This document shows positions 668 through 23,594 of a DNA stretch of 64,000 nt, piece by piece. Within the stretch, counting starts at the first letter, position 1, and every line of letters begins with the position of its first letter. The notes under the pieces are model-generated. The model worked only from the letters and a program-made list of their open reading frames with translations. It made no database searches and was not told where the DNA came from. The position numbers were made by a program, and so were the translations under genes. The DNA comes from Alteromonas aestuariivivens. Lineage in GTDB: Bacteria > Pseudomonadota > Gammaproteobacteria > Enterobacterales > Alteromonadaceae. The DNA lies in contig NZ_QRHA01000005.1 in assembly GCF_003367475.1 (NCBI RefSeq), positions 186,001 through 250,000 on the forward strand, written 5' to 3'.

Positions 668-3600
668 CTACAAGCCTATCAGATACTTGATCTCAAACCA
701 GTCAATGTCCATCAGAAAACCGGTATCCGTCGGATGGCTGAATTCCAGTGTCAGCTGATCAATCTGTTGCAGGGCTGCGGTACTTAAGGTCACCGCCAAC
801 TGTTGTTCACCTCCGGTAACCACCTGACCTTCGCCCACGTAAACGCCATCTGCATAGAAGGTAATCACCGACTCAGCCTTGACGTTACTGACCAGCGCCA
901 GCACAACTTCCAGATCTCCGGCCAGGTTATTCAGATTAACATCGTAGGTTACAGAGGTTGAATCTTTGATGTACCCAAGCTTGGTACCTCCACCTGATGC
1001 CCTTGCACCGTCATTCGCCACATAATCCTCAGCTTCAACTATTAACCCTGCATCAATGCTGGGCGTCACACCATACTCCAGTGTAAAGTTGTCAACATCA
1101 AGCAGGAAGCCGGTATCAGTGGCATGAGCAAATGCGAGTGTCAAAGTTCCAACAGGCTTACCATAGGTACTTAGTGTGGTTGACAACGTTTGCGCCCCTG
1201 TGATGGCAGTTTTCGCCTTACCTACACTCACACCGTCTGCCAGCACTTCAATTTCAGCATCGGCCTTAACGTTGCCAGTTAGGTTAAAACTCAAAGTCGC
1301 GTTCGTTGCCAGCGCCGACAGATTGAGGTCATAACTGACCCAGGTTCCGTTTTTAACGTACCCCAGACCATCACCGGCTGCCCTGGCACCAGAGTTAGCT
1401 GCATACTCCTCGGCTTCAACACTGAGTGACACCATTTCAACCGGCAGCACACCATAGCTGAGACGGAATTTATCCAAATCCATCAGGAAACCGGTATCTG
1501 TTGGATGGGTAAATTCCAGTGTCAGTGTGCCGACAGGCCCAATGCCTGCCGTCATCAGAGAGCCTGATAATGTCTGCTCACCGGCCATGGCTACCGTAAG
1601 TTCACCCACAAGTACGTCATCGGCATACACATTAATCACCGAGTCCGCCTTCACATTGGCAACCAAATCCAGTTCTATCTGAGTATTAATCTCAGAAGCC
1701 GGCAGGTTAAGGTCGTAAGAAACCCAGGTGTTGTGTTTGATGTAACCCACCTTGGTTCCACTGGCTACACGGGCACCGCTGTTGGCATCGTAGTTTTCGG
1801 CTTCCACTTCCATATCGAACATTGTGAGCTTGGGCACCGAGTAATTCAGCGTGAACCAGTCGAAATCCATCAGGAAGCCAGTATCCGTTGGGTGCGAGAA
1901 GTTGAATGTCAATTGCGCAATTTCCCCGATATTTTGCGTGAACAATTCAGTCGTCACCGTCTGCGGGCCAGCCAAAGGCACTTCAATCATTCCAACAAAC
2001 ATACCATCGGCGTAGACATCTACAATTGTCCCCTGCTTGACACTGCCACCAACCAGAGACATTTTCAGTACGGCATCAGACAGTGAATTTGGCAGATTCA
2101 CATCGTACGTTACCCAGGCACCGCTCTTGATGAAACCAACCTGGGCGCCGCCACCGGCAACTTTCGCAATATTGGCATCCACAAAGGTTTCGGCTTCAAT
2201 TTGTACATCCACTTCAGTTAACAGCGGGCTCTCAAACACAGGGACGTCTCCCGTATGTTCCGTCACAACAAACTTCTCAGCATCGGAAACCTGACTGCTC
2301 GCGGCATACAGTGGAGCCTCTGCCGTAGCTGACATTTCAATGCGCACAAACAAGCCAGTCGCCTTGGAGTAAAGAGATACTGTGCCATCACCGTTGTCCA
2401 CCCAGATAAACTTGGCATTCTCGGTAATGTCCTTGTCGTCTTCGTCACCGCGACGGCTGTCGGGTTCTGCATGAAGATAACCGTAGCGCCCGGCATCCAC
2501 TTTCAGGTAATAACCACTGGCATCCCGCAATGCAATGAAACCGTCGCCCGCATCAGTCACAATAAAACCCGGATCTTCAGCTGTACCATTGGCCATTGCC
2601 GGGCTCAGCCCTACTGGTACACTCTCATCGGAATGCACGTAGGCACCGTTCGATGCCTGCATGGCAATATACTGGCCAATGGGTGCTGAACTGGATTCCG
2701 GTGCTGTCACTGACTCAGGCATGGAGAACAATGTTAGCGTGGGTAAGACCAAACCTTCGTTGTAATCGAAATACTGCCCGAACATGTCAATGTCATTAAT
2801 GGCCTGATCTTCGATAACAAGGTTGTCAAAATGTATGAAACGAATGTATGCAGCCCGGCCATCAGACATGCCCTGCTGGGTTAACAAACGCTCCTTGACA
2901 TAAGATGCCTCCCGAATGGTGAAGTTGCGGAAGGTTTTATCACCAAATACTGCGATTTTGTCCGGTGTTGAAATACTGTCACTTTGTTCAATATTGATAT
3001 TGAAAATCAGCGACTCGCGACCATAAAAATCAAAATCTTCAAACACACCACCCGAGTGGTTTGTAAGGCCTTCAACGTCAAACCGTGAGTTAAATACACC
3101 ATGATTGTCGCCGTACTTGCCCTCGGCTGCGTTACGTCTGTCGGATGACCACACTGTGTGATTGGTTACCGTTGCAGTGATATCCGGTATGTTGAACGAA
3201 CCCCAGCCAAACTGGAAGCTCGGCCCGTTATGCATGTTGTAACTGGTGTTGTATTCCATCAGGTAGTCTTCATGCGCATACGTGATGTCATCATCGTTGG
3301 TCAGAAGGTTACCCACATAATGGGCTCTGGAGCCAAAGGTCTGATAGGTACTGCCGCCATACCCCACATCTTTGTGGTTAACGATTTTCGAGTTCGCCCC
3401 ATCAACCACAATGCCCATGCGCCCACCAATATTGGTCAGCCCCTGGAACACACTGGGTTGGGCACTGTACTTGCCTTTAAACCAAACGTGGGTTTCCCAT
3501 GCATGGGTTAAGCCCCAAGGGTTACCTTCGATGGAATCCAGGTGAGACCACTGGCTTCGCGCACGGTCACTCCATACATAACCGTATTCGTCACCTTCGT

Positions 3601-5548
3601 CGTCAGTATACAGATTGAACATTTCATCGCTGTATATGCCACGGCCCCAAACTTTGACCGGGTAACTGTTATTGTAAAAAAGAAAACCGTAATGCAAATA
3701 AGCATCGCCGGGAACGTACAATTCGCGCGCAGTCGCATTGCCCTGTATCCCTCCATCTTCCTCTGGAATCAGCCCGGGTTGGTCACCCAGGAACTGATAG
3801 TTCGGATCCGGTAAATGAATGCCTGGGCCATAAACCACCAGCTCACCGTCGTTAAACTCGCGAATTTCGCCTTCAGGTGCGGAAGCCGGAGCAACATGCA
3901 TTGGGTTTACGAATACAAACAGTGGCGCTTCAATGGTAGTGCTGCCTCGGTATTCGGTTAGCGGAGACTCAGACCAGGCTTTACGGTTCACGGCTATTCG
4001 GTAGTGACGGGTGTAATCTGTTGCTCCGGGCAAGCGGACATCAAACGTTTGCTCGTCCACGGCCGTAATGCCCAGAGGAGCCGGGTGGATTTCCAGATCT
4101 CCCATGTCGACAACGCCATGCGCCGGATCAAGAGTTACTCTGACTGTCACGTCTTCTGCGGCATCAAAGTTGGTCCAGTGTTTACTGTGCAAAGAACTGC
4201 CGCTCACCCCTTCCTGGGGCCCGTAATAAGCATACTGATAAGGACGATGCCCGGGCAGGCCGTTGTCTTTCTTGGTATGCCTCACATCATTTTGAGCAAG
4301 GAAATTACGAATCTGAGGCCGTGTTTCATACACCGGCGAACTCAGCACTTCCCCTTCATCAGAAAGAACTTCCACCTTGAAATAGGTTGAAACCCGGGTC
4401 GCCTGCCCCTGTGACGGGTCAATGGGCGTTTGATATTGCATAATGGGGAACGTAATGTTCCGGTTGACCAGATTACCGTCGTCGTCATAAACGTCTTTGG
4501 CTACTGTCATAGTGCGGCCAGAACTGATATCCGCCACCTCAGGATACACTTCCAGCGTATCGGCCGTACCCACAATGCGCAGTGTTTCAGCGTCCTCAGA
4601 AACAAACTCCCCGCGGGTGGCACGAACACGAATGTACTGGGTTTGCTGACGATCAAACTCGGCAATCACTGCCATGGTTTCATCTGCAACAGCCTGGCCG
4701 ATTTGCTGCCAGTCGGAACTGCCATCAAGACTCGACTCTACAATGAACCCATCCTCATTGACGCTTCTGTCGTGCCAGTAAACCGTCAACTGGTCGTAAG
4801 GAGCGGTAGACTTGAAGTACAGCTTGTCCGGGCTGAACAACCAGGCACCATGATCCTCGGCAACGGTCATCATCATTTCGACGACATGGGTCTCGCCCAA
4901 ATCGTCGGTGGCCACGATTTTCAGGCGTCGCTCACCGGCTTCAGGCAGTTCAATGGATACACTAAAATCAGGACCTGTTGTGGACTGAGCGGCCATTTGG
5001 CCGTCAAAGTAATAATCCACCGACGAAATCTGGCCATCCTTGTCCATGGCATGCACGGCAAAATCTACCGTTTCGCCCTGTACCAGTGGTGTCTGGGCAT
5101 CCGGCATCACCAGCGCGATAGTGGGCGGCTTGTTCGGTTCAGTAACCTCAACCAGCAGGCTGGTCTGGGTTTCTGCGCCCTCATCGTCCATAACCACCAC
5201 TGTGATCGTATTGGTTCCCAACGACGCATTTACCGGCACATAAACCGGCGCAGTCTGAAACGGTGCCGACGTCTCTTCACCAATCAGTGAATCGTTCCAG
5301 TAATAACTGACTTTGGCAATATCACCATCGCTGTCGGCCACCACCGAATCGATTTGGATGGGCTCGCCTATAGCGAACACAGAACCTGCCAGCGGCGCCG
5401 TAACACTTACCGTTGGCGCAACGTTTGGAGCAGCCTGACAGTCAGCACCACTGCAGTCCTGCTGACGCTCTTTGGGATCATCACTTCCGCCACAGGCTGA
5501 CAAAGCAAGGAGTGTGCATAAAGTTAAAGTCTTTTTAGTAAAAGTCAT
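668..5548 (-). CDS. Large multidomain surface lipoprotein with GH49-like beta-helix, beta-trefoil and four carbohydrate-binding modules
   Basis: 1626 residues. A lipoprotein signal (LSAC, Cys19) is followed by two Ig-like repeats (about 45-230), an FN3-like domain (about 235-330), a beta-sandwich plus right-handed beta-helix (about 335-945), a fascin-like beta-trefoil (about 955-1100) and four tandem CBM6/CBM35-like modules (about 1110-1626). The core matches my recollection of GH49 dextranase/isopullulanase in order and spacing: a W-x-x-F-D strand, LFVFVNP, a GPGIHL turn, ELYVPGDAYLHYGF (near 609), GRGIYSDEMF, HKDVGYGG (near 724), the acidic triplet D752-D754, and GPSFQFGW (near 772). GH49 enzymes hydrolyse alpha-glucans; here the substrate is unknown and the Asp expected in the QTDG position appears to be Phe. 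It is the last gene of the TonB receptor operon, 43 bases after the preceding lipoprotein gene. A GAGGT ribosome site supports the start. Other beta-helix GH or PL families remain possible. Confidence 0.6.
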   Translation of the reverse strand: MTFTKKTLTLCTLLALSACGGSDDPKERQQDCSGADCQAAPNVAPTVSVTAPLAGSVFAIGEPIQIDSVVADSDGDIAKVSYYWNDSLIGEETSAPFQTAPVYVPVNASLGTNTITVVVMDDEGAETQTSLLVEVTEPNKPPTIALVMPDAQTPLVQGETVDFAVHAMDKDGQISSVDYYFDGQMAAQSTTGPDFSVSIELPEAGERRLKIVATDDLGETHVVEMMMTVAEDHGAWLFSPDKLYFKSTAPYDQLTVYWHDRSVNEDGFIVESSLDGSSDWQQIGQAVADETMAVIAEFDRQQTQYIRVRATRGEFVSEDAETLRIVGTADTLEVYPEVADISSGRTMTVAKDVYDDDGNLVNRNITFPIMQYQTPIDPSQGQATRVSTYFKVEVLSDEGEVLSSPVYETRPQIRNFLAQNDVRHTKKDNGLPGHRPYQYAYYGPQEGVSGSSLHSKHWTNFDAAEDVTVRVTLDPAHGVVDMGDLEIHPAPLGITAVDEQTFDVRLPGATDYTRHYRIAVNRKAWSESPLTEYRGSTTIEAPLFVFVNPMHVAPASAPEGEIREFNDGELVVYGPGIHLPDPNYQFLGDQPGLIPEEDGGIQGNATARELYVPGDAYLHYGFLFYNNSYPVKVWGRGIYSDEMFNLYTDDEGDEYGYVWSDRARSQWSHLDSIEGNPWGLTHAWETHVWFKGKYSAQPSVFQGLTNIGGRMGIVVDGANSKIVNHKDVGYGGSTYQTFGSRAHYVGNLLTNDDDITYAHEDYLMEYNTSYNMHNGPSFQFGWGSFNIPDITATVTNHTVWSSDRRNAAEGKYGDNHGVFNSRFDVEGLTNHSGGVFEDFDFYGRESLIFNINIEQSDSISTPDKIAVFGDKTFRNFTIREASYVKERLLTQQGMSDGRAAYIRFIHFDNLVIEDQAINDIDMFGQYFDYNEGLVLPTLTLFSMPESVTAPESSSAPIGQYIAMQASNGAYVHSDESVPVGLSPAMANGTAEDPGFIVTDAGDGFIALRDASGYYLKVDAGRYGYLHAEPDSRRGDEDDKDITENAKFIWVDNGDGTVSLYSKATGLFVRIEMSATAEAPLYAASSQVSDAEKFVVTEHTGDVPVFESPLLTEVDVQIEAETFVDANIAKVAGGGAQVGFIKSGAWVTYDVNLPNSLSDAVLKMSLVGGSVKQGTIVDVYADGMFVGMIEVPLAGPQTVTTELFTQNIGEIAQLTFNFSHPTDTGFLMDFDWFTLNYSVPKLTMFDMEVEAENYDANSGARVASGTKVGYIKHNTWVSYDLNLPASEINTQIELDLVANVKADSVINVYADDVLVGELTVAMAGEQTLSGSLMTAGIGPVGTLTLEFTHPTDTGFLMDLDKFRLSYGVLPVEMVSLSVEAEEYAANSGARAAGDGLGYVKNGTWVSYDLNLSALATNATLSFNLTGNVKADAEIEVLADGVSVGKAKTAITGAQTLSTTLSTYGKPVGTLTLAFAHATDTGFLLDVDNFTLEYGVTPSIDAGLIVEAEDYVANDGARASGGGTKLGYIKDSTSVTYDVNLNNLAGDLEVVLALVSNVKAESVITFYADGVYVGEGQVVTGGEQQLAVTLSTAALQQIDQLTLEFSHPTDTGFLMDIDWFEIKYLIGL
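677..2205 (-). repeat. Four tandem carbohydrate-binding-module repeats inside the GH49-like lipoprotein gene
   Basis: Four units of about 340-370 bp (roughly 2205-1845, 1815-1455, 1415-1080 and 1045-677, read on the minus strand). Each begins with an (I/V)EAE(T/N/E/D)(F/Y) motif, continues with a GY/FIK...W/S-V-(T/S)-YD(L/V)NL strand, and the first three close with a (H/A)(P/A)TDTGFL(M/L)D(F/L/V)D strand, the fourth with HPTDTGFLMDIDWF. The order of strands fits a CBM6/CBM35 beta-sandwich. Linkers between units are short and similar, which suggests intragenic duplication. Confidence 0.75.
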
Positions 5549-5591
5549 GTTCTGACCTCAATTCTATTTATATTTGTCCGTAGGGCGGCCA

Positions 5592-8480
5592 TTACTTGTT
5601 GGCAGCCTGCAGTAGATACACCACTTCACCGGTAAGATGGTCTATCGCGTAGAGCGCACTCTCGGTCATATCGGTGGCCACCAGATAGGGCAATCCGCCT
5701 TCCATTACCACTGCGCTCAGGCGGCCAATGGTGTTTTCAGAGGAAGACAAGGTCATTACCTGGGTTTCGGTGGTCTGAATCGCCATTCCCCCCTGTGGGC
5801 TGGCTTCAACAATTGACGGTAAGTTGGACAGATCCAATTTCGCTATCTGAGCACCAAAGCTGATGAACGCCGCCTGTGTTTCATCGTCGATCGCAATCGA
5901 GAGGCTGTCCGGCAGTTCTACAGGGTTACCGGAGCTGTCCACCAGGTTCAGTTGGGTCATAGGAACGTTTTCGTCGTAAACGTCCTTTTTGGTGGTCGCG
6001 TATACACGGGCTTTACTGGCGTCATTGCTTTGTACCAGAGTGACAATGTACTCGGTCCGCGCCTCACCTTCGCCGACGTATAGCAAGTCAACGGAGACTG
6101 TACCGCCAAAGTTGGTGGTGTTACCGAATGTCTTGCGTGAAATCCACTTACGATGGGTAGTGGAGTCATTGTTCTGAATTGGGCTTCCTGCAAGGTTGTA
6201 GTTCATGGTAATACGGCCGAGGCCATCGTTCCCGGTAACGTACACTGTATTGCCATCCTCTGACATGGCCGTTTGTCGGGCACTCCAAATGGTATTTCCC
6301 AGGCCTTGCAAGTACGCATCCGGGGTCGCCATAACGGACAGGTTCGGATAGTTCTTGAGATCGGATACTCTCAAATGCGGGCCATCCCAGGCATGGCGTA
6401 TCAAATAATTACCGTCGGTTACCGGACGATAGTTGTTTATGGTGATCCCACCTATTTTCTTTTGCAGCTCAGTGCTGCCGTACAGCGCCAGAGGTGTCGC
6501 CATTTTGTCAATGGAAGAGCCCATAACCAATTCAGTAACCTGCTTACCGGTGTATTCGGCCAGGTAGAAAATTGGGAAACCACCACGTCCATCCACGGCA
6601 ACGTCAACCAGGTCACTGAATGCGCCTGCATCATCCGGGAACAACGTATTCTTCGACTCCAGCTTCTCAACCTGAACTTTGACCGGGCGCAGATTGATCA
6701 AGTCAAACGGAGTAATGGTGCTGTCTACAGCAGACGTCAGAACAAACTCGATCTGTTCTCCTGCACCATAATTACCAATATCCGCTTCGTAGGTCCAAAT
6801 CCCTGTCTCGGGATCGTAGCTGTCTACGGCGTTACCGTTAACCAGAAGTTGATCATTGCTAAGACCATCATTCCCTGTATTCAGGTTCGCCCGCCCCCTC
6901 AGAATAAGCGTATTGGATGCGGTAGCTGAAACCGGCGCAGGGAATTCGATGTTGGCTTCCAACACCGGCAGCTCGGGATCCGCCTTGGTTTTTACCTGCC
7001 ACTCAAAGCTCTGATCGCCTACCGTAAAAGAAGGCCATATTGACGTAACATAATCAGAGGGCATCAGAACCTTGATTTGCAGGGTTTGACCTGGCTCAAT
7101 CAGCGCTTCGGGCTCGTCGGTAAAAAAGCGTCCATCGATGGAATAGAGCACCTGGCCTGTGACTGGAACCTGTTCGCCGGTTTCCGGATCGAGCATCTTC
7201 GCACCCACCGAAACTGGCAGTTTTTCGTTGTAGCCCTGCAGATTAACAGAGTAAACCAGCTCCTCGACCTTTTCTTCAGTACTGATTTTGGCGCCTGAAT
7301 TGCGCGGGTCTTCGCTGAAGATTGCCCCATCGATGGCGTCAAACTCGGTATCCCGCGCTTCGGTTGTGACCTCAAATGGAATTATCTGCGTTTTTGTCTG
7401 GCGGCTTAGCACAACAGGAATGTTGCGCTCATCACGCCTTGGGATCATGACCGCGTTGCCCTGCTCATCCCAAACCGGATTACCGTCATCATCCTGTTGC
7501 TGAATCATGTCATAAACCACTTCTTCGTACGGCCAGGCAATCTGCGCACGGTAAGTTTGGTCGAACACGTAATCAGGCAAGTTAAAGTTAATCCGCAGGT
7601 AGTCACCATTCTGAGCGCACTGGCTATAGGGCTGAAGATCGTTCTTGGTCATCTTGCTGTGACTGAACACTTCGATGGTGGCAACCGGGCGAACTTCCGT
7701 GCTGCCATCATCATTTTCTACGATGTAAGTGTCCTGATCGGAAACCAGCTCAAAGTCGGACTTAAACTGATTACTCAGTCCGCGAATGGGCATGGTAGAG
7801 ACAAAGCTGATGGTTTGGCCGTCTGCAACCGCAATCACTTCACTGCCGTCTTTGGAGAGAATTTCACTGCGGTCGAATTCCAGTGTATCGTCACGCAAGG
7901 TATCACCTGCAGGTGGCGTGACCACCTGGAAATTGTACGTTTGGCCTGCAAAGGTAAGACCGGCTTCAAAGGTCATATCATAAAAACCGCCGGGAATAGC
8001 AAAGTTCAGGGAAAACTCATCGCCATTCAGAACGGAAGTGACCGGATCGCCGCTCGCATGCCCGGAATTGGGCGCCGTAGGATTCACGTTGGCGTACACC
8101 AGACTGTTTTTGTACGGAGTGTCTATCAGGTAATCCGGATCGGCCGGACATTTATCCGGGTCCGGAGCCTGAATGGATTGCGGTGCCGTCAGCGTAAAGT
8201 GATGGGTCTGGAAATCATCCAGCCCGCTTATTACCGGGTTGTCCGGCTTAAACGCAACCGTCAGTGCTTCGCCGTTAAATTCGTTATTTTCCGCAATCAG
8301 TTGGGCTGCGGTGGTGTAGCTCAGTTCAACGCTTGTGCCCGCTTCGGTAAAAGTTAACGGGTTTGGTTCGCCACTGCGATCGTTACTGGGGGTGTCAGTA
8401 TCGCCCCCACCGCACGCAGTAAGAAGTAATGCAGACAATGCTGTGGCGATTGGGCTTAATCTTGGATGCTTCGAAATCAT
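5592..8480 (-). CDS. Large lipoprotein of the TonB receptor operon, paralogue of the next upstream gene (second copy)
   Basis: 962 residues with a lipoprotein signal (LTAC, Cys23, then GGGD, a sequence that favours outer-membrane sorting). The first 600 or so residues are beta-rich and Ig-like, with phrases such as PASNTLILRGRANLNTGNDG. The last 330 or so read like a propeller of NHL/SMP-30 type, with repeated GNTVYVTGNDGLGRI- and AAFISFGAQIAKLDL-like blades. The end (VVMEGGLPYLVATD...) matches the end of the upstream lipoprotein (VIEGGMDYMIISD...), so the two are paralogous at least there. No catalytic motif is visible. Position between a TonB receptor and a glycan enzyme suggests a surface glycan-binding role in place of SusD/SGBP proteins; this is inference. 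A TGGAG ribosome site lies 7 bases before the ATG. Confidence 0.55.
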   Translation of the reverse strand: MISKHPRLSPIATALSALLLTACGGGDTDTPSNDRSGEPNPLTFTEAGTSVELSYTTAAQLIAENNEFNGEALTVAFKPDNPVISGLDDFQTHHFTLTAPQSIQAPDPDKCPADPDYLIDTPYKNSLVYANVNPTAPNSGHASGDPVTSVLNGDEFSLNFAIPGGFYDMTFEAGLTFAGQTYNFQVVTPPAGDTLRDDTLEFDRSEILSKDGSEVIAVADGQTISFVSTMPIRGLSNQFKSDFELVSDQDTYIVENDDGSTEVRPVATIEVFSHSKMTKNDLQPYSQCAQNGDYLRINFNLPDYVFDQTYRAQIAWPYEEVVYDMIQQQDDDGNPVWDEQGNAVMIPRRDERNIPVVLSRQTKTQIIPFEVTTEARDTEFDAIDGAIFSEDPRNSGAKISTEEKVEELVYSVNLQGYNEKLPVSVGAKMLDPETGEQVPVTGQVLYSIDGRFFTDEPEALIEPGQTLQIKVLMPSDYVTSIWPSFTVGDQSFEWQVKTKADPELPVLEANIEFPAPVSATASNTLILRGRANLNTGNDGLSNDQLLVNGNAVDSYDPETGIWTYEADIGNYGAGEQIEFVLTSAVDSTITPFDLINLRPVKVQVEKLESKNTLFPDDAGAFSDLVDVAVDGRGGFPIFYLAEYTGKQVTELVMGSSIDKMATPLALYGSTELQKKIGGITINNYRPVTDGNYLIRHAWDGPHLRVSDLKNYPNLSVMATPDAYLQGLGNTIWSARQTAMSEDGNTVYVTGNDGLGRITMNYNLAGSPIQNNDSTTHRKWISRKTFGNTTNFGGTVSVDLLYVGEGEARTEYIVTLVQSNDASKARVYATTKKDVYDENVPMTQLNLVDSSGNPVELPDSLSIAIDDETQAAFISFGAQIAKLDLSNLPSIVEASPQGGMAIQTTETQVMTLSSSENTIGRLSAVVMEGGLPYLVATDMTESALYAIDHLTGEVVYLLQAANK

Positions 8481-8530
8481 GATCGACTCCAGTGATTTAT
8501 TCTTCTAATAAAGTGAGACCTGAACGCTGA

Positions 8531-11323: not shown

Positions 11324-11358
11324 TTTATGCATTCCCGATATTCTGTAGCGCGACCTGA

Positions 11359-14300: not shown

Positions 14301-14646
14301 GAGTGAGGCCACGAACCTGAAAGCCGGAGCCCTGCCCGGTTTCATCGCGGTTGATTTGAACGCCGGTAACCCGTTGCAACGCTTCGGCGATGTTGTTGTC
14401 TGGCAGTTGGCCAATATCTTCGGCAGAAATGGCGTCAAGGATCTGGTCGGCGTTCTTCTTTAAAAAAGCCGCATCGCGTAATGAGCTTCGCACACCCCGT
14501 ACACTGATCACCTCAACGACGTCTTCTTCTTCGTCGGCTTTTTTCTCAGCTTCCTGCGCACTGGCAATTCCACACAAGGGAACCAGCGCTGCAGACAAAA
14601 ACAAGTGATGTCGAATCTGCTTCGTAAGGGATTTTATCTTGAACAT
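11359..14646 (-). CDS. TonB-dependent outer-membrane receptor (Xanthomonas/Caulobacter type)
   Basis: 1095 residues. A signal peptide ends near ASAQEAE and is followed by an acidic stretch and a TonB-box-like VVEVISVRG. The plug domain carries the typical phrases AEDIGQLPDNNIAEALQRV, GVQINRDETG and VRGL. The rest is a long 22-strand-type barrel ending in the aromatic-terminated strand YYTLGIRARFD. This subfamily imports oligosaccharides and other large substrates in Proteobacteria, powered by TonB-ExbBD (not in this window). It is the first gene of a four-gene minus-strand operon and faces the HTCS regulator across a 449-bp gap, which suggests that the regulator controls it. Substrate specificity cannot be read from sequence. 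Confidence 0.9.
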   Translation of the reverse strand: MFKIKSLTKQIRHHLFLSAALVPLCGIASAQEAEKKADEEEDVVEVISVRGVRSSLRDAAFLKKNADQILDAISAEDIGQLPDNNIAEALQRVTGVQINRDETGQGSGFQVRGLTQNRVEINGQDMGSSSDSRSNSFNAVDSSLFSRIEVIKSPTADMVEGASGATVRLHTFKPLDFKKTTVNLSGQGTRDDLAEDNGHKFSLMGTSKFDLDSWGEIGFLINTSAETSYRDSHSYFSNWAPMIENQIAHSPQAAGKTIFRPDNIFIDQKPFQDDRMSFDSAIQWRPNSDLEFSVSAIRMELDRANTKQGINFRTNSDKNYFLDRDLDGTVIDESPSILTGWSRNPVDNELIVINPDEVAAGAAPEYAPYNGMLDRYFVQTGTVTPVGNLYNPPVSVGFDSNEDSEVQESFQFGMEYQITDNLLMNAVYAFASSEREAERYSMNMGAGVIQQRVDEEILNQEEASVNLSSVNVYYDYASPGDLPTVGVVVDDGSVEAMKNALLNPDIYTVTGLGGNREYHQNKKDSLALDFDYFVDGDFLTKVEFGARLANNNVNRRRNELEYNSPNSFSITSDNWRAYDQDLTTETMLGGNIGWSNPTIAWTDQVFEEHYGVNNYLSRFLNPVTNTFAGNGGETLPGWLGSTMSHNDLAQFIGDMFPGRSGGNCTLYDKDNQRICTDRMEYPVGDETPENWREYNYLLDIPAATYLADQDYPYLIEETTKAIYFKANFENVIFDLPFSGNIGVRYVETEVSSLGMNKTRIVDEDTWRPLDDFDTRNATNYTPVSYEGSYANVLPSFNFNLLLTENMFLRFAYSKTMTRPNPVDLSPTFSVPTFGFSGNRGNPQLKPEKASNYDLSWEWYQSDVNQFSAAIYYKELKDFLTDSFTNYISPTDRNLNGLFDDPVTIRQPVNGDEGSVQGVELAATHTFEYLPGFLSGFGVQTNYTFTDSSQAAGYNELDGSVLPIKDLSENSANLILFYDKYGFNFRAAYNYRDESFVSLSSAGPEPILYESFTDVTGATDYRQKSVSVPVWNDEFATLDLSMSYRFNGVTVFLQATNVLDEPRRSYVGDVDNTKHLLRQLNQTGPYYTLGIRARFD

Positions 14647-15095
14647 TCGGTTTTCCCATTTACTTTTGAGTCAACCGCCATCCTAGTTACATTATGTAAA
14701 CATTCACTGACCAAATATCTTTAAATTACTAACATTTTTTCCCGCCGCACAAGATTTCCTCGTCGCTAAAGCCTTAAAAATGTTGCCTACTCCCTTCTCA
14801 GATTAAATTTTTTACTATAATTAACAAACACTTAAACCAACACCATCGTCACCAAACAAGATAGTATTAATATTCCGCTAATAATTGTATTATTTTATTA
14901 CCTTAAAGGGTTGATCAGTGAGCAATTCTTAACCGACAGTTAACAAAAAGGCTCATGCCGGGACAAAAAAAGATGCTTTGTCAGTACCGTGGGGACAAAA
15001 AGACAGTGCGGAAATCTGCGGTTGGAAGCCTTTTTTACCACAGCGAAATCCTCATTCAGCCCCAATTATTGCAAGCGTCTAAAGGGTGATGAACA
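14647..15095 (+). promoter_or_regulatory. Divergent AT-rich control region between the TonB receptor and HTCS genes
   Basis: 449 bases without a gene, clearly richer in A+T than the flanks. It holds the palindrome TTACATTATGTAA at 14687-14699 upstream of the receptor gene, a TATAAT hexamer at 14816-14821 in plus orientation, and a direct repeat GGGACAAAAA at 14960-14969 and 14992-15001, a 32-bp spacing that places the copies on the same helix face. These are candidates for promoter elements and HTCS binding sites, but none has an independent match, and a well-spaced -35 box is not obvious. Confidence 0.4.
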
Positions 15096-18000
15096 ATGCA
15101 TGACAATCGAATACGGGTCCGACATTGCCAGTCTTATGACACAAATAAGCAAACACTTCCCTTTTCATCGGTGAACAATTTGTTAGAATGGCTTAAAAAA
15201 TATGTTGTACCTGTTGTGCCAAAAAATACCTTATTTCTCCTGCTAGCCTGCCTGCTTTACATTTCTTCCAGCGCGGGTGCCAGCAGTTCCTCGCTGTTAC
15301 CCAGCCTGTTTAGCAGCGGGTATCGCTGGCATGACGTTGAAGGTATGAACAATCAAAATATCCGAAATGCAGTATTTGATGAATGGGGAACCTTGTGGAT
15401 TGCCACTACCAATGGTTTAGCCACCTTCGATGGATTAACCCTTACCCCGATTTCGCAGTCTGATGGCAACGCCCCAATGGGTGAAATCCGGGCCATTCAC
15501 TGGGTAAACAGTGATGCAGGATACGCCATTGGTCTTAGAGGCATTTGGTATTTCAGCGATGGCAAGTGGCAACCCATTTCAGATGATCTCACTCTGTTCC
15601 CGTCAAAATATACGCACCAGATTCTGCACCCTCAGCAGGCCTCGGACGGCTCAGTGTGGTTTTCCGCTGAACGGGAGGTGGTCAGATTGTCCGGCCGTCA
15701 GATTCAACGTTTTGCGATTAACCATAGCCGACTGACAAACCTGCTGGTTGATAATAGCGACCGTATCTGGTTGGCCGAAGAACAAACGGGCTCGGTTATC
15801 CGCTATCGGTATCAAAACGGTGTGCTTCAGGAGACAAAACAGTGGCCTGAGCTGTTTCCTACAGATCATACCAAATCCATCCCGGGGATTTCCCAATTCG
15901 TTACAACACCGGGTGGTGATATCTGGCTGATCAACAGCCTGAGCAATTCCGCTCCATTGAGGCTCTCTGCCACCAGCAAAGAATGGCAAGCCATAACCTT
16001 GCCCCAGGTTGTTGGAAGAAATATAAATTTCAGCCTGCTGGCATTAAGCGAGCAGGAATTGCTGATGACTTCCGGCAGTGAAATTTTATACAGCACTGAT
16101 GGTGGCGATACGTGGGACCGGGTCGATCCCAGCTTGCACACAACAAGTTACAGTATGTACGGAAACCTGTTGAGACTCTCTGCGGATAACCGCCTGCTTA
16201 TCATAGAACCAACCATCGGTGTGCAAATGTACTCGTTGCCGGTCGACCAGCCGGTTCACTATGCAAACAAACTCTTTCAGTGTGAAGACGCAAAAGGCCG
16301 ATTACACTTCATCGGGCGGGACAACAGTGTATGGGTTAACACTCCAGCCTCTGAACAATGGAACAGGATCCTTCCCAAGGAAAGCGGTATTGAGCGCCCT
16401 CTGAATGTAATGTGCGCCACCAACGGAACTCTGTGGGTAAGCGGCTCTACAAACAACACTGCGGCAATCAGCTATCGCGAAAATGGCGAATGGCACCCGC
16501 ATAGCTTCCCGGATTTCGGTGAATCCATCCATTACCAGTCCCCCAGGGAAGACCATCAGGGAAGGTTTTATTTTGGCAATAACTACTACTCCAGCCAGAC
16601 TTTCCCTGATGCCAGAAACCTCATTCGGTTTACCCGCATAAATGGCCGCTACGTTCATGAATACCTGCCCATTTCCTATCCAAAAGTTTCCCGGATAATT
16701 CCACTGCACGACGGCAGCCTTGTGCTTGGTGGATTGCAGCTAAGGCATTTATCAGCTCTGGGAATCAAAGATTTTCCTATTCCCTCCACCCAAAATACCA
16801 CCTGGACTGACGATGTGCTCAAAGTGGGGGATGATCATTTCTGGGTAGCACGCTGGGGGGGCGGTATCAACATTTATGACCAGGGTAACTGGCGCGAAAT
16901 TGATACCTACAATCTGCTTGGCACCAAAAAAATTGCCAACTTGATCAGCTTAAACAGTGGTGAAATACTGGCGTTGACCGACAAGGGTCTCGCCCAGTAC
17001 CGGCACAATGAATGGCAAAATCTTACTGCGCTCAATGTGCACGGTGAAAGCCGGGCAACCTCACTGCATCACAGCAGCGATGGCTCTATATGGGTTGGTC
17101 ACTTTGACCGTAAGTGGTGGGCAATTGGTGGCCAGCTTGACACTGGGGATGATTTTCATACTACCCGGATATGGCCGGACAACGACGCACCTCAAACCAG
17201 ACTGATGCCTATCGAGAATAAAAACGATGCTGCCGGGCCATTACTGGTCGAATGGAAAGGTATGGATCTCTGGTCCCAGACGTTAAGCAACCAGCTTGAA
17301 TTCTCCTATCGTTTAAACCGGGAGCCCTGGTCACCTTTTTCCACCGACAATTCCACGATTTTACGCGGACTGCAGGAAGGAGAATACCTTCTTGAAGTGC
17401 GGGCACGGGACGGCCACGGAAATATTGACAGCACGCCAGCAAGTGCAAATTTTGAGGTAGTTCCGCCATTTTATCAAACACGCTGGTTTACCCTGCTGAT
17501 GATATTGACACCGCTTCTGATTGCCTGCCTGTTCTCGTTGCTATTAATGCAGCGACTGCAAACCAGTCGTAAGATTGCCAAAGCTAGGATGCGCTTTCTT
17601 ACCAATATTTCCCATGAAATTCGTACTCCCCTGACGCTTATCATGGGGCCGCTTGAAAAACAGGTGAAACTGGCAGCGGAAAATTCCACTACGCACAAAG
17701 ATCTTACCCTCGCACTCAATAATGCCAATCGGCTTTACGAACTGGTTGAGCAGCTACTGGATTACCGTCGGGTCCGGCACGGAAAACACCTCATCAAACC
17801 CCAACGTAAAGACCTGGTGGCATTTCTGAAAATGCTCATTGCTCACTTCGAGCATCTGGCGGCAAGCCGCCACCAGCGCATTCGGCTGGTCTGCAATCTG
17901 GACCAGTATTATTGCTTTTTTGATCCCGATACGTTCAGCAAGATCCTGGACAATCTGCTGATCAATGCCCTGAAATATTCCGATGAAGGAACTGAAGTTA

Positions 18001-19205
18001 AAGTCATTACCTATCTACCCGTAGTCACACAGAGTATGTCCCAGCTAAATCCGCCCAGGATAGTGGTGGAAGATCAGGGCATGGGCATCCCGGCAGAAAA
18101 TCTGGAACAGATTTTTGACCCTTTCTACAGCGGCAATAAAAAGCTGTCGACCAACCTTTCCAGTTTTGGTGTTGGGCTGGCTCTGGTAAAAGAGCTGGTA
18201 GAACTGCATGAGGGTAAAATCAGCGTTATCAGCCCAACCGGTAAGAAAAATAACAAACCCATTGGTACCCGATTCGAACTTGTTTTTTCCGGGCTAATGC
18301 CGGCGGACTCAGAGAGTAAAATGGATGTTTTTGATCTTACTGCCATACAGAATCCGGATCATGCTGAAACTGAGAATGGCGAAAGTGACAGCACCGATGA
18401 AACCCTGGTATTGCTGGTTGACGACCAGCCCGAGTTGAACGACTTTATTGCTGCTGAACTGGCCGGGTACTTTAACGTCATTACCGCCTTCAACGGCGAT
18501 GAGGGATACCAGTTGGCTGTTCAGCATGTACCCGATGTGGTGATTTCCGATGTGTTGATGCCGGGCGGAATTGATGGCCTGGAACTGTGCTCACGGCTCA
18601 AAGACAACCCGGCCACCAGCCACATCCCCGTTATCCTCCAGACGTCGCTGGCGTCCAGGGAAAATCAGCAGGAAGGGCTCGCAATGGGAGCGATTGACTA
18701 CCTAACCAAACCCGTCTCGATACCCTTGCTGATTAACAAGATCAACAACTATCTCGACCACCGGCGAAAGCTCGCCAGCGTGGTTTCAGGCGGGCTTGCT
18801 CATCCCCAACCAAAGAAAAAGGTGATTGAAAAACTGCCTCAGACCAAGTCTCATCTTGAACCTTCTGAACAGAAATTCATTGATAAATTCCAGTATCTGG
18901 TTGAAGAAAAATATCAAGATGCCTACTTTACTGCTGAAAGCATCGCCAACGAAATCGGCATGAGCCGAAGTGCGTTTTACCGTAAATTCAAAGCCATAGC
19001 GGACCAGTCACCTGCAGAATACATCAAAAATTTCCGCCTACAGAAGGCGATTGTACTTCTTAGTGAGCCGGACTGTGTTATCAACCATATTGCTGAAAAA
19101 ATTGGTTACACCGAACTCAGCCCGTTCTACCGGGCATTCAAGAAAAAATACGGTTGTACTCCAGCCGAATATCGTAAAACTCACCTCCAGACGGAAAGCG
19201 CTTAA
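15096..19205 (+). CDS. Hybrid two-component system (HTCS) glycan sensor-regulator: propeller sensor, histidine kinase, receiver and AraC DNA-binding domain in one protein
   Basis: 1369 residues. The N-terminal 45 residues are polar, then comes a hydrophobic segment (about 45-65) acting as signal/anchor. The periplasmic part has reg_prop propeller repeats (WGTLWIATTNGLATFDG and many like it) and a Y_Y_Y domain (near 720-790). A second membrane segment is near 795-820. The kinase has the H-box FLTNISHEIRTPLT with His840, an N-box (DNLLINALKYS) and G-boxes (DQGMGIP, FGVGLAL). The receiver has the phospho-acceptor Asp1152 in VISDVLMPGG and the conserved K in YLTKP. The C-terminus is an AraC-type double HTH. 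In the family such proteins sense oligosaccharides in the periplasm and activate nearby polysaccharide loci. The ATG at 15096 follows an AAAGGG site; a GTG at 15171 would shorten the cytoplasmic tail but lacks one. Confidence 0.92.
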   Translation: MHDNRIRVRHCQSYDTNKQTLPFSSVNNLLEWLKKYVVPVVPKNTLFLLLACLLYISSSAGASSSSLLPSLFSSGYRWHDVEGMNNQNIRNAVFDEWGTLWIATTNGLATFDGLTLTPISQSDGNAPMGEIRAIHWVNSDAGYAIGLRGIWYFSDGKWQPISDDLTLFPSKYTHQILHPQQASDGSVWFSAEREVVRLSGRQIQRFAINHSRLTNLLVDNSDRIWLAEEQTGSVIRYRYQNGVLQETKQWPELFPTDHTKSIPGISQFVTTPGGDIWLINSLSNSAPLRLSATSKEWQAITLPQVVGRNINFSLLALSEQELLMTSGSEILYSTDGGDTWDRVDPSLHTTSYSMYGNLLRLSADNRLLIIEPTIGVQMYSLPVDQPVHYANKLFQCEDAKGRLHFIGRDNSVWVNTPASEQWNRILPKESGIERPLNVMCATNGTLWVSGSTNNTAAISYRENGEWHPHSFPDFGESIHYQSPREDHQGRFYFGNNYYSSQTFPDARNLIRFTRINGRYVHEYLPISYPKVSRIIPLHDGSLVLGGLQLRHLSALGIKDFPIPSTQNTTWTDDVLKVGDDHFWVARWGGGINIYDQGNWREIDTYNLLGTKKIANLISLNSGEILALTDKGLAQYRHNEWQNLTALNVHGESRATSLHHSSDGSIWVGHFDRKWWAIGGQLDTGDDFHTTRIWPDNDAPQTRLMPIENKNDAAGPLLVEWKGMDLWSQTLSNQLEFSYRLNREPWSPFSTDNSTILRGLQEGEYLLEVRARDGHGNIDSTPASANFEVVPPFYQTRWFTLLMILTPLLIACLFSLLLMQRLQTSRKIAKARMRFLTNISHEIRTPLTLIMGPLEKQVKLAAENSTTHKDLTLALNNANRLYELVEQLLDYRRVRHGKHLIKPQRKDLVAFLKMLIAHFEHLAASRHQRIRLVCNLDQYYCFFDPDTFSKILDNLLINALKYSDEGTEVKVITYLPVVTQSMSQLNPPRIVVEDQGMGIPAENLEQIFDPFYSGNKKLSTNLSSFGVGLALVKELVELHEGKISVISPTGKKNNKPIGTRFELVFSGLMPADSESKMDVFDLTAIQNPDHAETENGESDSTDETLVLLVDDQPELNDFIAAELAGYFNVITAFNGDEGYQLAVQHVPDVVISDVLMPGGIDGLELCSRLKDNPATSHIPVILQTSLASRENQQEGLAMGAIDYLTKPVSIPLLINKINNYLDHRRKLASVVSGGLAHPQPKKKVIEKLPQTKSHLEPSEQKFIDKFQYLVEEKYQDAYFTAESIANEIGMSRSAFYRKFKAIADQSPAEYIKNFRLQKAIVLLSEPDCVINHIAEKIGYTELSPFYRAFKKKYGCTPAEYRKTHLQTESA

Positions 19206-19583: not shown

Positions 19584-22500
19584 ATGCGAAAATCACTTTG
19601 TACCTTGCTGGCCCTGGCCAGTTTTATCGCCGCGGCCAACCAGCCGCCGGAAATCACACTGAAGTCCCCCGCCTCTAATGCCGTTATCGGTCGTGGTGGC
19701 AATCTGCACATCACAGCCCTGGCCAGCGATCCTGATGGTAGCGTTGTCAGGGTTGACTTTTATGTCAATGACCAATGGGTTGGCAGCGATGACAGCAACC
19801 CTTACAGCGCATCAGTCACCGGGTTGCCTGAAGGAAGCGCAAGTGTCCGGCTTGTCGCCACCGATAATCTGGGGGCAACCTCTGAAGTAAGTACTGCAGC
19901 ATCAACCCCAAGAGTTGGTGAGCTTAACGTGCCCGGCGATCTGTACTTCTACAATCCTGCACCCTATGACTCATTGCTGTTGTATTGGCGTGACACCAAT
20001 GTCAACGAAATAGGCTATCAGATAGAACAGCGTTTTGAGGATTCCGACTGGGTGGTACTCGCCACCACTGCGGCCGACACCGAAAACTTTGAAGTTAACG
20101 CATACGATCGCACCCAGACCCGTGAATTCCGCATCCGTGCGACCAACATTAACCGGGAATCAGAGTACAGCAATGTGGTGCGGATTGTCGGCAGTGAGGA
20201 TAACCTCGAAGTTTATCCGGAAGTACCCGGTATTCGCACACCAAAAACACTTACGGTTAACGGCATCACGTTTTCAGAATTGCAGGATCAGACCCCTTCT
20301 GATCCCAGTCTGGGTAAAGCAACCCGCTTGTCGACTTTTTTCAGGGCGGAAGTCAGACTGGAACAGGGTACAACCCCACTGCTCAATACCCCTGTGTATG
20401 AAACCCGCCCCCAATTGCGAAACTATCTCGGCCACGATGATCCGGCCCACACTGGCGGACATCACCCCTATGGCTATGCCAACTATGGCCCTAACAGCGA
20501 TAAACCCGAACGCACCCTGCACAATAAGCACTGGACCAATATCGATGCCAATCAGGATGTGGTTGTCCGGGTTACCCTGCTTGAAAGTGCAAGCCTGCCG
20601 GGAAACATCAACCTGGCCGATCTGGAAATACAGCCTGCGCCACTTGACGTGATTCAGGTGGACGAACGCACGGTAGACATAACCCTGCCCGGAGCACCGG
20701 AATTTGCCCGCCATTACCGGGTTGCAATGAACCGCAATGCCTGGTCAGACCGTATCCCCAGAGGTAACGGTAGCGAAGACACCGTAATAGAATCGCCTCT
20801 GTTTATTTTCATAAATCCAGTCCATTTAGCTCCCGCCAGCGCACCTGAAAATGAAATCGTTGAATTTGATAATGGCAGTCTGGTGGCATTCGGATCCGGC
20901 ATCCACCTGCCCAACCCCCACTACCAATTCTTTGGCCCGGGTGAAAACCAATCTGCACGGGAGCTCTATGTCCCCGGCGACGCCTATCTGCATTACGGTT
21001 TTCTGATGAAAAACGACGATTACGCCATCCGGCTCTGGGGGCGTGGTATCTACAGTGATGAGATGTTCGACATTTACCGCAATGTTACACAATATGAATG
21101 GTCCACACCCACACGCACGCCCTGGGCGGATATGACCGCCATTGAAGGTAACGTTTGGGGGATCACACAAAGCTGGGACACCCATGCATGGCTCCGTGGC
21201 AAGTATCAGGCAGAGCCAACTACCATTGAAGGGCTGACCAACATCGGTGCCCGTATGGGCGTAATGTTCCTCGATGGCAATGGCGCCCTTATCAACCACA
21301 AAGACGTTGGCTATGGTGGCGGAACGTACCAGTCAGGTGTCAACAGCAAAACCTATTACAACGGTTGTCTGCTTATCAATGATGATGACATCACCTATGT
21401 GCATCACGACTACCTTATGGAAAACTCCACCACTTATGTAATGCACAACGGGCCGAGTTTCCAGATTGGCTGGGGGGCCTTCAACTCCCCCAACATCAAC
21501 ACCCATGTGCGCAACCATACCGTACTGTCATCCGACCGTCGGGAGTTGAACTACGGAAAAAACCACGGTGTCTTCGACAGCCGTCTGAACGTGGAACAGC
21601 TGAAAAACCACAGTGGTGGACTGTTTGAAGATTTCGAATTCTGGGGTAAGGAAACCATCATTTTCCAAATTCGCATATGGAATGAGAATGCCGCAACACC
21701 GGATACCACCAGTATACTGGGCGATATGACGTTTAAAAATTTCACTATTCGTGAGCGTTCCTACAACCCTGAAATCTTGTACGCAGACAGCAACTACGGG
21801 CTGAATAAACAGGCCTACTTGCGCTTCCTGCATTTTGACAACCTGGTCATAGAGGGCTATCCGGTTTCCCACATCGATGACGGTAACTACTTTGACTACA
21901 ACGAAGGTGCATTGCTGCACACCATTACCTTTTTCAGTTTGCCTGATGCCGTGGCAAATCCTGAAGCCGGTAATGCCCCAATGGGTCAATCGGTCACAGT
22001 AATGTCTGAAATCAACGGATTACACCTGCAACAGGATACCAGCCTGCCCGCCAGTTTTGGCCCCATTACCGCCAATACAACAGAAGCGCTGGACGGTTTC
22101 ACCGTTGTGGATGCCGGCAATGGCTACGTAGCACTCAAATCGTCCAACGGCTACTACCTCAAAGCTGACCCAGCACGCTACGGTTATCTCTATACCTTAC
22201 CGGATACCAGCCGTGGGGATGCAGACACCACAGAAATCACAGAAAACGCCAAATTCGTGTGGGTGGATGTTGGGGAGGACTCCTTCGCCCTGTACTCCAA
22301 AGCCATGGGACTGTACGTTCGCGCCGAACAGAATACCGGCCCGAATGCCCCACTCTATGCCGCCAGCGACTCTGTGGGCGCAGCCGAAACATTTACTGTC
22401 ACCGGCACCATCGAACTGGAGACGCCTGACGAGCCCACAACCATCCGCGTTGAAGCTGAAGACTACAGCGATCAGTTTGGCCTTACCGTTAAACCTGACA

Positions 22501-23594
22501 ACATTGAAGGGATTAAAGACGGCGAGTGGGCTGAATATCAGCTCAACGCCCAAGCCACACACGAAATGACATTCGCAATTAGCGCTGCGGCAGCGGGCAC
22601 CGGCGGCACCATAGAGGTTTACGCTGACAACATTCTTGTGGGCAGTGTCGATATCAGCAATACCGGTGGATGGAACAACTACAGTGAATTTACTACCACC
22701 CTGAACATCGACAACTTGGATATCGGCACCCTGCGATTGGAATTTGTATCCCCGGGCACCGGATTCCTGTTTAACATAGACTGGTTTGAACTTACCCTAA
22801 TCCCCGATGAGCCAGCCACAGACCCGTTGATTAAGGTTGAAGCGGAAGATTTTACTGAACAGTTCGGTCTGACAATAAAACCAAGTACCATTGAAGGAAT
22901 TAAAAACGGCGAATGGGCCAGCTATCTGGTGGATTTTGAGACCGGTTCCGAGGTGACGCTCAGGGTGAGTGCTTCCGCGGCTGGCCAGGGTGGCCGGATA
23001 AATGTGCTTGCCGACGGCACCTTGGTCGGCACCGTTAACGTCAGCAACACAGGTGGCTGGGGTACCTACCAGACGTTTGAGACAACACTGGATATTCCCT
23101 TTCAGACGGTGTCAGAACTGCGTCTTGAGTTTGACTCGGATCACACCGGATTTCTGTTCAATATCGACTGGTTTGAACTGAATATCACTGCCGAGCGTGA
23201 GCCCGAGTTCATCAGCCTGCTGGTCGAAGCGGAGCATCTTATCAGCCAGCAAGGTGTAGCGGTGAAAGACACCACTGTTGAGAGTATTAAAGGCGGAGAC
23301 TGGGCGGAATATCTGTTGAACATTCAGCCCCGCTACGACATTAGCGTAAACGTAAACGCCTCTGCTGCAGGTTTGGGTGGCACCATCAACTTCATTGCCG
23401 GCGGGGTGCTCATCGGCAGTGTGGACATAACCAACACCGGAGGCTGGAGTCAGTATCAAACATTCAGCGCTGTGCTGTCTTTTCCGCCGGAGCAAATTGA
23501 AACCCTGCAACTGGAGTTTGTAGCACAACACACTGGTTTTCTGTTCAACATCGACTGGTTTGAACTGCAATTTATCGGTATTCCAAGCGCCTGA
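19584..23594 (+). CDS. Secreted multidomain GH49-like beta-helix protein with beta-trefoil and three CBM6 modules
   Basis: 1336 residues from the ATG at 19584, which follows an AGGA site and begins a clean signal peptide (MRKSLCTLLALASFIAAA). Longer in-frame starts put 19 polar residues before it. Order of domains: Ig-like (25-115), FN3-like (120-210), beta-sandwich plus beta-helix (about 210-790), fascin-like beta-trefoil (about 795-940) and three CBM6 modules (about 954-1072, 1083-1203, 1214-1329). It parallels the minus-strand lipoprotein through the trefoil, with identical landmark strings (YVPGDAYLHYGF, GRGIYSDEMF, the DDD triplet at 600-602, HNGPSFQ.GWG). Unlike that protein it has no lipobox Cys, so it is expected in the periplasm or outside the cell. 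The activity is inferred to be alpha-glucan hydrolysis if the GH49 likeness holds. Confidence 0.6.
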   Translation: MRKSLCTLLALASFIAAANQPPEITLKSPASNAVIGRGGNLHITALASDPDGSVVRVDFYVNDQWVGSDDSNPYSASVTGLPEGSASVRLVATDNLGATSEVSTAASTPRVGELNVPGDLYFYNPAPYDSLLLYWRDTNVNEIGYQIEQRFEDSDWVVLATTAADTENFEVNAYDRTQTREFRIRATNINRESEYSNVVRIVGSEDNLEVYPEVPGIRTPKTLTVNGITFSELQDQTPSDPSLGKATRLSTFFRAEVRLEQGTTPLLNTPVYETRPQLRNYLGHDDPAHTGGHHPYGYANYGPNSDKPERTLHNKHWTNIDANQDVVVRVTLLESASLPGNINLADLEIQPAPLDVIQVDERTVDITLPGAPEFARHYRVAMNRNAWSDRIPRGNGSEDTVIESPLFIFINPVHLAPASAPENEIVEFDNGSLVAFGSGIHLPNPHYQFFGPGENQSARELYVPGDAYLHYGFLMKNDDYAIRLWGRGIYSDEMFDIYRNVTQYEWSTPTRTPWADMTAIEGNVWGITQSWDTHAWLRGKYQAEPTTIEGLTNIGARMGVMFLDGNGALINHKDVGYGGGTYQSGVNSKTYYNGCLLINDDDITYVHHDYLMENSTTYVMHNGPSFQIGWGAFNSPNINTHVRNHTVLSSDRRELNYGKNHGVFDSRLNVEQLKNHSGGLFEDFEFWGKETIIFQIRIWNENAATPDTTSILGDMTFKNFTIRERSYNPEILYADSNYGLNKQAYLRFLHFDNLVIEGYPVSHIDDGNYFDYNEGALLHTITFFSLPDAVANPEAGNAPMGQSVTVMSEINGLHLQQDTSLPASFGPITANTTEALDGFTVVDAGNGYVALKSSNGYYLKADPARYGYLYTLPDTSRGDADTTEITENAKFVWVDVGEDSFALYSKAMGLYVRAEQNTGPNAPLYAASDSVGAAETFTVTGTIELETPDEPTTIRVEAEDYSDQFGLTVKPDNIEGIKDGEWAEYQLNAQATHEMTFAISAAAAGTGGTIEVYADNILVGSVDISNTGGWNNYSEFTTTLNIDNLDIGTLRLEFVSPGTGFLFNIDWFELTLIPDEPATDPLIKVEAEDFTEQFGLTIKPSTIEGIKNGEWASYLVDFETGSEVTLRVSASAAGQGGRINVLADGTLVGTVNVSNTGGWGTYQTFETTLDIPFQTVSELRLEFDSDHTGFLFNIDWFELNITAEREPEFISLLVEAEHLISQQGVAVKDTTVESIKGGDWAEYLLNIQPRYDISVNVNASAAGLGGTINFIAGGVLIGSVDITNTGGWSQYQTFSAVLSFPPEQIETLQLEFVAQHTGFLFNIDWFELQFIGIPSA
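22441..23571 (+). repeat. Three tandem CBM6 modules in the secreted GH49-like protein gene
   Basis: Three units of about 350-360 bp begin at about 22447, 22832 and 23225. Each starts with VEAE(D/H), has I(E)(G/S)IK.G(D/E)WA.Y, a GG.I.......G.V.(I/V)(S/T)NTGGW strand, and ends with TGFLFNIDWFEL. The NTGGW and NIDWFE motifs are typical of CBM6. They are more canonical than the four modules of the lipoprotein paralogue. Confidence 0.8.

Follow-up and report, generated by a model that had tools for sequence, protein, structure and literature searches.

The window analyzed here, a stretch of 64,000 nucleotides from Alteromonas aestuariivivens, probably a marine bacterium (contig NZ_QRHA01000005.1, positions 186,001 to 250,000), carries at its left end a gene cluster built around a TonB-dependent receptor (TBDT) and two large lipoproteins, termed lipo1 and lipo2. 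The TBDT gene (11359..14646) lies on the minus strand and is followed, on the same strand, by lipo1 (8531..11332; 933 amino acids (aa), lipobox LMGC), lipo2 (5592..8480; 962 aa, lipobox LTAC), and a GH49-like enzyme with a lipoprotein signal (668..5548; 1626 aa, lipobox LSAC as picked by eye). Only 26-50 bases separate these minus-strand genes, so an operon is likely. On the plus strand, a hybrid two-component system regulator (HTCS; 15096..19205) stands divergent from the TBDT operon, and a secreted GH49-like paralog with Big_7 and three CBM6-type repeats occupies 19584..23594. The open reading frame (ORF) of this paralog is also open from a GTG at 19527, and the ATG at 19584 is the likelier start because a signal-peptide-like stretch begins there. 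A candidate control element, to which no strand is assigned, lies between the HTCS and TBDT genes (14689..14719) and is shared with Catenovulum maritimum. An initial annotation of the window had proposed these six ORFs, and all are present at the positions it gave; its length for lipo2 (962 residues) is correct, whereas the 930 residues given for lipo1 become 933 on translation. It overlooked a GH43 gene at the left edge that belongs to the cluster, whose 3′ part ends at base 449 (1..449, plus strand) and which encodes 494 aa from a start outside the window (contig C31:184966; L033:966-2450).

The TBDT, lipo1, and lipo2 genes form a trio that was found in a single fixed order at seven of seven loci in five genomes: the window, C. 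maritimum, a plasmid of Catenovulum adriaticum (between 558 and 567 kb), and two loci each in the genomes G477 and G778. For all three proteins these loci fall into two types, type I comprising the window, C. maritimum, and the first loci of G477 and G778, and type II comprising C. adriaticum and the second loci of G477 and G778. TBDT identity is 62-66% within type I, 63-65% within type II, and 45-50% between types; the corresponding values are 56-61%, 48-52%, and 28-30% for lipo1, and 54-61%, 39-44%, and 25-29% for lipo2. The split between types has a support of 1.000 in each of the three protein trees. Since the TBDT, lipo1, and lipo2 divide into the same two types, the three proteins travel as a unit, and since two genomes hold both types, either the split is old or both types were acquired. 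GH49-clan genes lie nearby at six of the seven loci, and at all four type I loci lipo2 is followed first by a gene for a GH49-like protein whose start is of the lipoprotein type. Before loci were counted, partial matches in G074 (68 residues), G047, and G367 (130 and 107 profile positions, with no TBDT or trio match around them) were dropped along with cross-matches between lipo1 and lipo2, and the entries W02 and G513, which are the same C. adriaticum locus by coordinates, were counted once.

The trio is sparsely distributed. With lipo1 as a single query, only the own genome matched among 60 relatives, which include 35 other genomes of the genus, all without a match. An alignment of lipo1 matched two of 394 genomes of the order (the own genome and G778) and three of 295 genomes in the family to which C. 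maritimum belongs (C. maritimum, G477, and C. adriaticum), while an alignment of lipo2 matched three of 369 genomes of the class, with a long match in the own genome only. No description of the trio was found in the literature searched, a body of work in which subscription journals are mostly not covered. The initial annotation held that no standard locus has this arrangement and suggested looking for the same gene set elsewhere; the gene set was indeed found elsewhere, and the arrangement is not unique to the window. The trio is real, recurrent, and unassigned, and is a variant of TBDT-plus-lipoprotein uptake.

No Pfam family matches lipo1 or lipo2 at E ≤ 1, and no NCBIfam model scores above its cut-off; a match to a described family, which the initial annotation had named as a refutation of its reading, therefore did not appear. 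Neither protein matches the SusD Pfam family, and the own genome contains no match to SusD_RagB (PF07980), in line with the earlier description of a locus without SusD. The two lipoproteins are distant homologs of each other (hhalign 99.8% across 579 columns; one weak BLASTP alignment at 1e-8). Searches of PDB sequences with either protein, as single sequences and as profiles, gave nothing usable; for lipo2 the best match was to a designed propeller (0.005), in which no stretch passed. The β-propeller ends proposed for both proteins thus remain a visual guess. In the favored reading, lipo1 and lipo2 function like SusD and surface glycan-binding proteins (SGBPs) while lying outside those families. 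The initial annotation had them replace SusD/SGBP: their position in the cluster, their co-inheritance with the TBDT, and the occurrence of related enzymes beside a true SusC/SusD pair in Persicobacter all agree with this, and the functional swap itself is plausible, unproven, and testable by gene deletions.

The TBDT matches the Plug (4.7e-17) and barrel (1.8e-28) families above their Pfam cut-offs and TIGR01782 at 8.8e-169 (563.5 bits against a cut-off of 310), and the SusC model TIGR04056 is not among its NCBIfam matches. By these profiles it is a receptor of the Xanthomonas/Caulobacter kind and not a SusC. In the divergent regulator, HisKA, HATPase_c, Response_reg, HTH_18, and Reg_prop exceed their cut-offs (one Reg_prop stretch passes) and Y_Y_Y falls under its own (15 against 26.6 bits). 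With five of six domains over cut-off in a single chain, and with a membrane topology read by eye, the protein is an HTCS, as had been proposed; together with the TIGR01782 receptor, these domains also uphold the earlier view of an HTCS-linked polysaccharide locus in a proteobacterium-type genome. An HTCS homolog stands divergent to the trio at five loci (the window, C. maritimum, C. adriaticum, and both in G477), and at the first G778 locus the contig stops before the HTCS position. Trans_reg_C regulators with propeller-like C-terminal parts occur near both G778 trios (L050:8927-10957 and L049:14592-16628) and are perhaps an alternative to the HTCS. The 31-base element upstream of the TBDT agrees between the window and C. 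maritimum at 21 of 23 core bases, with shuffled sequences reaching at most 16. Elsewhere it is at background, both at the other loci (15 and 14 matching bases at G477 locus 1 and C. adriaticum, and 13 at G477 locus 2 and at each G778 locus) and within the window genome (14 in the gap before the secreted paralog and 13 in the gap upstream of GH43).

Profile-profile comparison places both GH49-like enzymes in the GH49 clan, as divergent members. The enzyme at 668..5548 consists of Big_7 repeats, a GH49-like core, a β-trefoil-like region, and CBM6-type repeats, and it is paralogous to the secreted enzyme (43% identity over 1407 columns). GH49 Pfam cut-offs are not reached, as GH49N scores 13.5 against 21.3 bits in the enzyme at 668..5548 and no GH49 match is listed for the secreted paralog; the label "GH49-like" chosen in the initial annotation is thus apt. 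No match to PF03718 was found in the own genome, a result of little weight given that the controls matched nowhere either. A profile search of PDB sequences returned no GH49 chain, as did a search with the core of the enzyme at 668..5548, and the whole of that enzyme reached dextranase 6nzs at E = 0.14. Clade A comprises both window enzymes together with seven relatives; its profile was compared with those of two clades picked because they are neighbors. In single comparisons, hhalign gave 98.9% with the clade that includes a true GH49 from G477 (a protein matching dextranase 6nzs at 1.9e-38) and 98.0% with another clade, made up of proteins from C. adriaticum, G477, and Persicobacter. Foldseek with a model of the secreted paralog core placed five GH49 chains (dextranases and isopullulanase) at the top, from 6.6e-8 to 1.5e-5; the model is poor (pLDDT 46; TM-scores 0.25-0.35) and was used for this ranking only. 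GH49 enzymes have three catalytic Asp residues. In clade A, the Asp pair of the motif NDDD...NGPSFQxGW is retained in eight of nine proteins, the motif being intact in the enzyme at 668..5548, and the KDVG Asp in all nine, the equation of these residues with the GH49 catalytic residues coming from one hhalign alignment.

In C. maritimum, the GH49-like lipoprotein beside lipo2 (L005:4544-9037) has a broken motif, NSGD...TGASFQLGT, and its tandem neighbor is intact. The broken copy is, from its residues, probably a pseudoenzyme, and a non-catalytic protein would fit a surface binding role. In both window enzymes, the region after the core resembles β-trefoil chains from a GH18 protein (7zoi/7zoh, with E values of 0.0065/0.2 and 0.001/0.0019) and is possibly an extra carbohydrate-binding module. 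Among 369 genomes of the class, the GH49-like core matched two, in the second over just 68 residues; in the named genome collection it occurs in three places (C. maritimum, a Bacteroidales metagenome-assembled genome (MAG), and a Sedimentisphaerales MAG), and among plasmids in one of Persicobacter. C. adriaticum holds three GH49-clan genes. The earlier proposal that the window enzymes share the work, one at the cell surface and one in the medium, agrees with one lipoprotein signal and one ordinary signal peptide, both read by eye, and it is on these signal peptides that the split rests.

The genes that accompany the trio and the GH49-clan enzymes bear on the substrate. The window GH43 is a member of its family (PF04616 at 7.1e-30; 104.8 against 32.2 bits), and its nearest solved structure is the xylosidase/arabinofuranosidase Xsa43E (2.9e-31). 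In Persicobacter, a GH43 homolog (L008:22694-24211) comes directly after the GH49-like gene, and in Bacteroidales UBA5342 the GH49-like gene has GH43 homologs on both sides. Two of the three type II loci (C. adriaticum and G477) lie amid sulfatase and GH43 genes, with araB, araD, and araA 38-46 kb away. The annotation of the C. adriaticum plasmid lists eight family-43 glycosylhydrolases and nine sulfatase-type genes between 500 and 620 kb, with araA, ribulokinase, and ribulose-5-phosphate 4-epimerase at 517-521 kb; at the second G477 locus, araB, araD, and araA (72, 79, and 83% identical) are about 46 kb off, with sulfatases and GH43 in between. The Persicobacter plasmid, from Bacteroidota, carries GH49-type genes of clades A, B, and C along with GH43, GH2, GH27-type, and sulfatase genes, a true SusD (1.7e-34), a SusC (TIGR04056 at 5.8e-272, 905 bits), an HTCS, and araB and araD (51 and 58%); no araA turned up in the parts of the plasmid that were read. 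In G477, each of two places (C1:4811-7389 and C1:2250510-2253088) has two neighboring sulfatase matches whose scores and lengths are the same at both, through either recent duplication or an effect of the assembly.

The window genome itself has 23 sulfatase matches, at least seven of which, among the matches listed, lie at C1:603-652 kb. This large region of sulfatase, GH43, and GH27-type genes has a TBDT of its own and is similar to the region of the C. adriaticum plasmid. It encodes proteins with 65-84% identity to sulfatases and a symporter of C. adriaticum, and it includes a GH27-type gene (76%) and a clade B relative. A clade C relative (63%) is found on C33, and araB, araD, and araA (64, 69, and 63%) are on C32, unlinked to the window. 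Through this context of sulfatases, GH43, GH27-type enzymes, and araBAD, a sulfated L-arabinose-rich polysaccharide is favored as the substrate. The α-glucans suggested by the initial annotation are not borne out, given this context and the enzymes' scores below the GH49 cut-offs. β-L-arabinopyranose and α-D-galactose share the same ring configuration, and arabinans of this kind are made by Codium.

We give an even chance to the reading that the cluster, under control of the HTCS, captures and takes up a sulfated polysaccharide rich in L-arabinose, with lipo1 and lipo2 acting like SusD/SGBP. The HTCS would respond to a periplasmic glycan fragment by turning on the divergent operon of TBDT, lipo1, lipo2, and the GH49-like lipoprotein, and probably also the secreted GH49-like paralog. 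The GH49-clan enzymes would then cut an L-arabinose-rich, probably sulfated polysaccharide, of the kind of the sulfated arabinans or arabinogalactans of green algae, both on the cell surface and in the medium. As putative outer-membrane lipoproteins on the TBDT, lipo1 and lipo2 would capture, cover, and pass fragments to it. A GH43 would remove side chains, and breakdown would be completed by the sulfatase/GH43/GH27-type region and araBAD, which lie elsewhere in the genome, unlinked to the window. Gene content and order, the conservation of the trio, the company of GH49-clan, sulfatase, GH43, and araBAD genes in relatives, and the lack of a SusD match in the own genome are observed; surface location, glycan binding, complex formation with the TBDT, the substrate, and induction through the HTCS are inferred.

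Several observations weigh against this reading. Branching within each type disagrees among the three trees. In the 36 kb read at the second G778 locus, no GH49-type gene and no HTCS match lie next to the trio; a 676 aa Trans_reg_C protein stands divergent to the TBDT instead. A structure model of lipo2, made from a two-sequence alignment, was unusable (pLDDT 36, pTM 0.26), so no fold backs a role as a lid. C. adriaticum has a SusD-family gene elsewhere in its genome (G513:C2:253900-254811; PF07980 at 5.3e-36), probably acquired from Bacteroidota. As for the substrate, C. maritimum has no close GH43 ortholog (best 33%), GH43 suits the breakdown of xylan as well as arabinan, no sulfatase turned up within the 23 kb around the trio, and the TBDT of the C1:603-652 kb region, which is unlinked to the window, is 35% identical and has no lipoprotein gene after it. 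Because the cluster lacks a sulfatase and the arabinose-type region is unlinked with its own TBDT, the glycan used by the window locus may be a different one. The trio could act on some other arabinose- or xylose-branched glycan (e.g., algal xylan, arabinogalactan protein, or galactan), with the arabinan regions as chance neighbors; the xylosidase/arabinofuranosidase relatives of GH43 fit this as well, and types I and II may differ in substrate given that two genomes keep both. This alternative is rather unlikely, as clade A enzymes and a GH43 homolog also occur together in Persicobacter and Bacteroidales, in the former within about 33 kb of araB/araD.

The proposed position of lipo1 and lipo2 at the cell surface is challenged by an Asp directly after the lipidated Cys of the window lipo1. 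By the sorting rule of E. coli, Asp after the lipidated Cys directs a lipoprotein to the inner membrane. To our knowledge, proteobacteria do not as a rule export lipoproteins to their surface, and neither lipo1 nor lipo2 matches a carbohydrate-binding family in Pfam. The two proteins might then face the periplasm as scaffolds or chaperones of the TBDT, or as sensors feeding the HTCS, with no surface capture. We consider this improbable, since six lipo1 orthologs have no Asp after the Cys (one lipobox being picked by eye) and the lipoproteins are linked to the TBDT at all seven loci and to the HTCS at only five, one locus being unreadable and one without. A dextran-type α-glucan locus, in which the GH49-like enzymes are dextranases and lipo1 and lipo2 bind dextran, would account for the Foldseek ranking and for the profile-profile link to the true GH49 of G477. 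It is nevertheless very unlikely, as the window enzymes fall short of the GH49 cut-offs and GH49-clan relatives, the true GH49 of G477 included, occur in regions with GH43, sulfatase, GH27-type, and araBAD genes that are unneeded for dextran; no GH66, GH31, or GH97 type partner turned up, in the course of searches not aimed at them.

On its right, the cluster adjoins rimO, kdsB, lpxK, msbA, and comEC, and the C. maritimum cluster is adjacent to other housekeeping genes (read by eye). The GC content is 50.1% for bases 1-23594 and 51.3% in the remainder of the window, with no clear compositional trace of recent transfer in this comparison. Although composition is silent, the absence of lipo1 from the 35 other genomes of the genus searched and the differing neighbors indicate that the cluster moves.

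In gammaproteobacterial Catenovulum, cells were reported to take up labeled polysaccharide much like Bacteroidetes, with halo-like staining, laminarin and xylan incubations being named (PMC5520146). A TBDT with two lipoproteins conserved in two Catenovulum species is a concrete candidate for such a polysaccharide uptake route, and it would assign a likely role and substrate to two large protein families and to a divergent GH49-type clade. The window HTCS resembles those of Bacteroidota in joining Reg_prop, HisKA, HATPase_c, Response_reg, and an AraC-type HTH in one chain, and differs in that it belongs to a non-Bacteroidota genome, with a single passing Reg_prop and a Y_Y_Y below its cut-off. 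The enzymes are akin to GH49 dextranase and isopullulanase through the profile-profile link, the first-ranked Foldseek chains, and the aligned Asp pair and NG..GW, whereas their Pfam scores, their enzyme neighbors, and their added CBM6 and Big_7 set them apart.

Two known importers offer the closest comparisons. BtuG is a β-propeller. BtuB/BtuG of Bacteroides likewise pairs a TBDT with a large non-SusD surface lipoprotein (PMC10404256), in a system for vitamin B12. SusC/SusD with SGBP of Bacteroidota shares with the window the clustering of a TBDT gene, followed by outer-membrane-type lipoprotein genes, with enzymes and an HTCS, and Persicobacter has related enzymes alongside true SusC/SusD. 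It differs in that the window TBDT belongs to TIGR01782 and not TIGR04056, and in that lipo1 and lipo2 are large, homologous to each other, and outside the SusD families. SusD has been described as an invention of Bacteroidetes (PMC8319329), to which the SusD-family match of C. adriaticum is, by genome sequence, an exception. As a tentative proposal, with somewhat less than an even chance of being right, TBDT-lipo1-lipo2 may be a second, independently evolved equivalent of SusC/SusD. It would be an outer-membrane importer of three parts, two of them homologous lipoproteins that serve as lids, ancient enough for two substrate types to have diverged and used by some Gammaproteobacteria-type bacteria for selfish uptake of large sulfated polysaccharide fragments, to which the inactive GH49-like lipoprotein of C. 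maritimum would add a third binding part.

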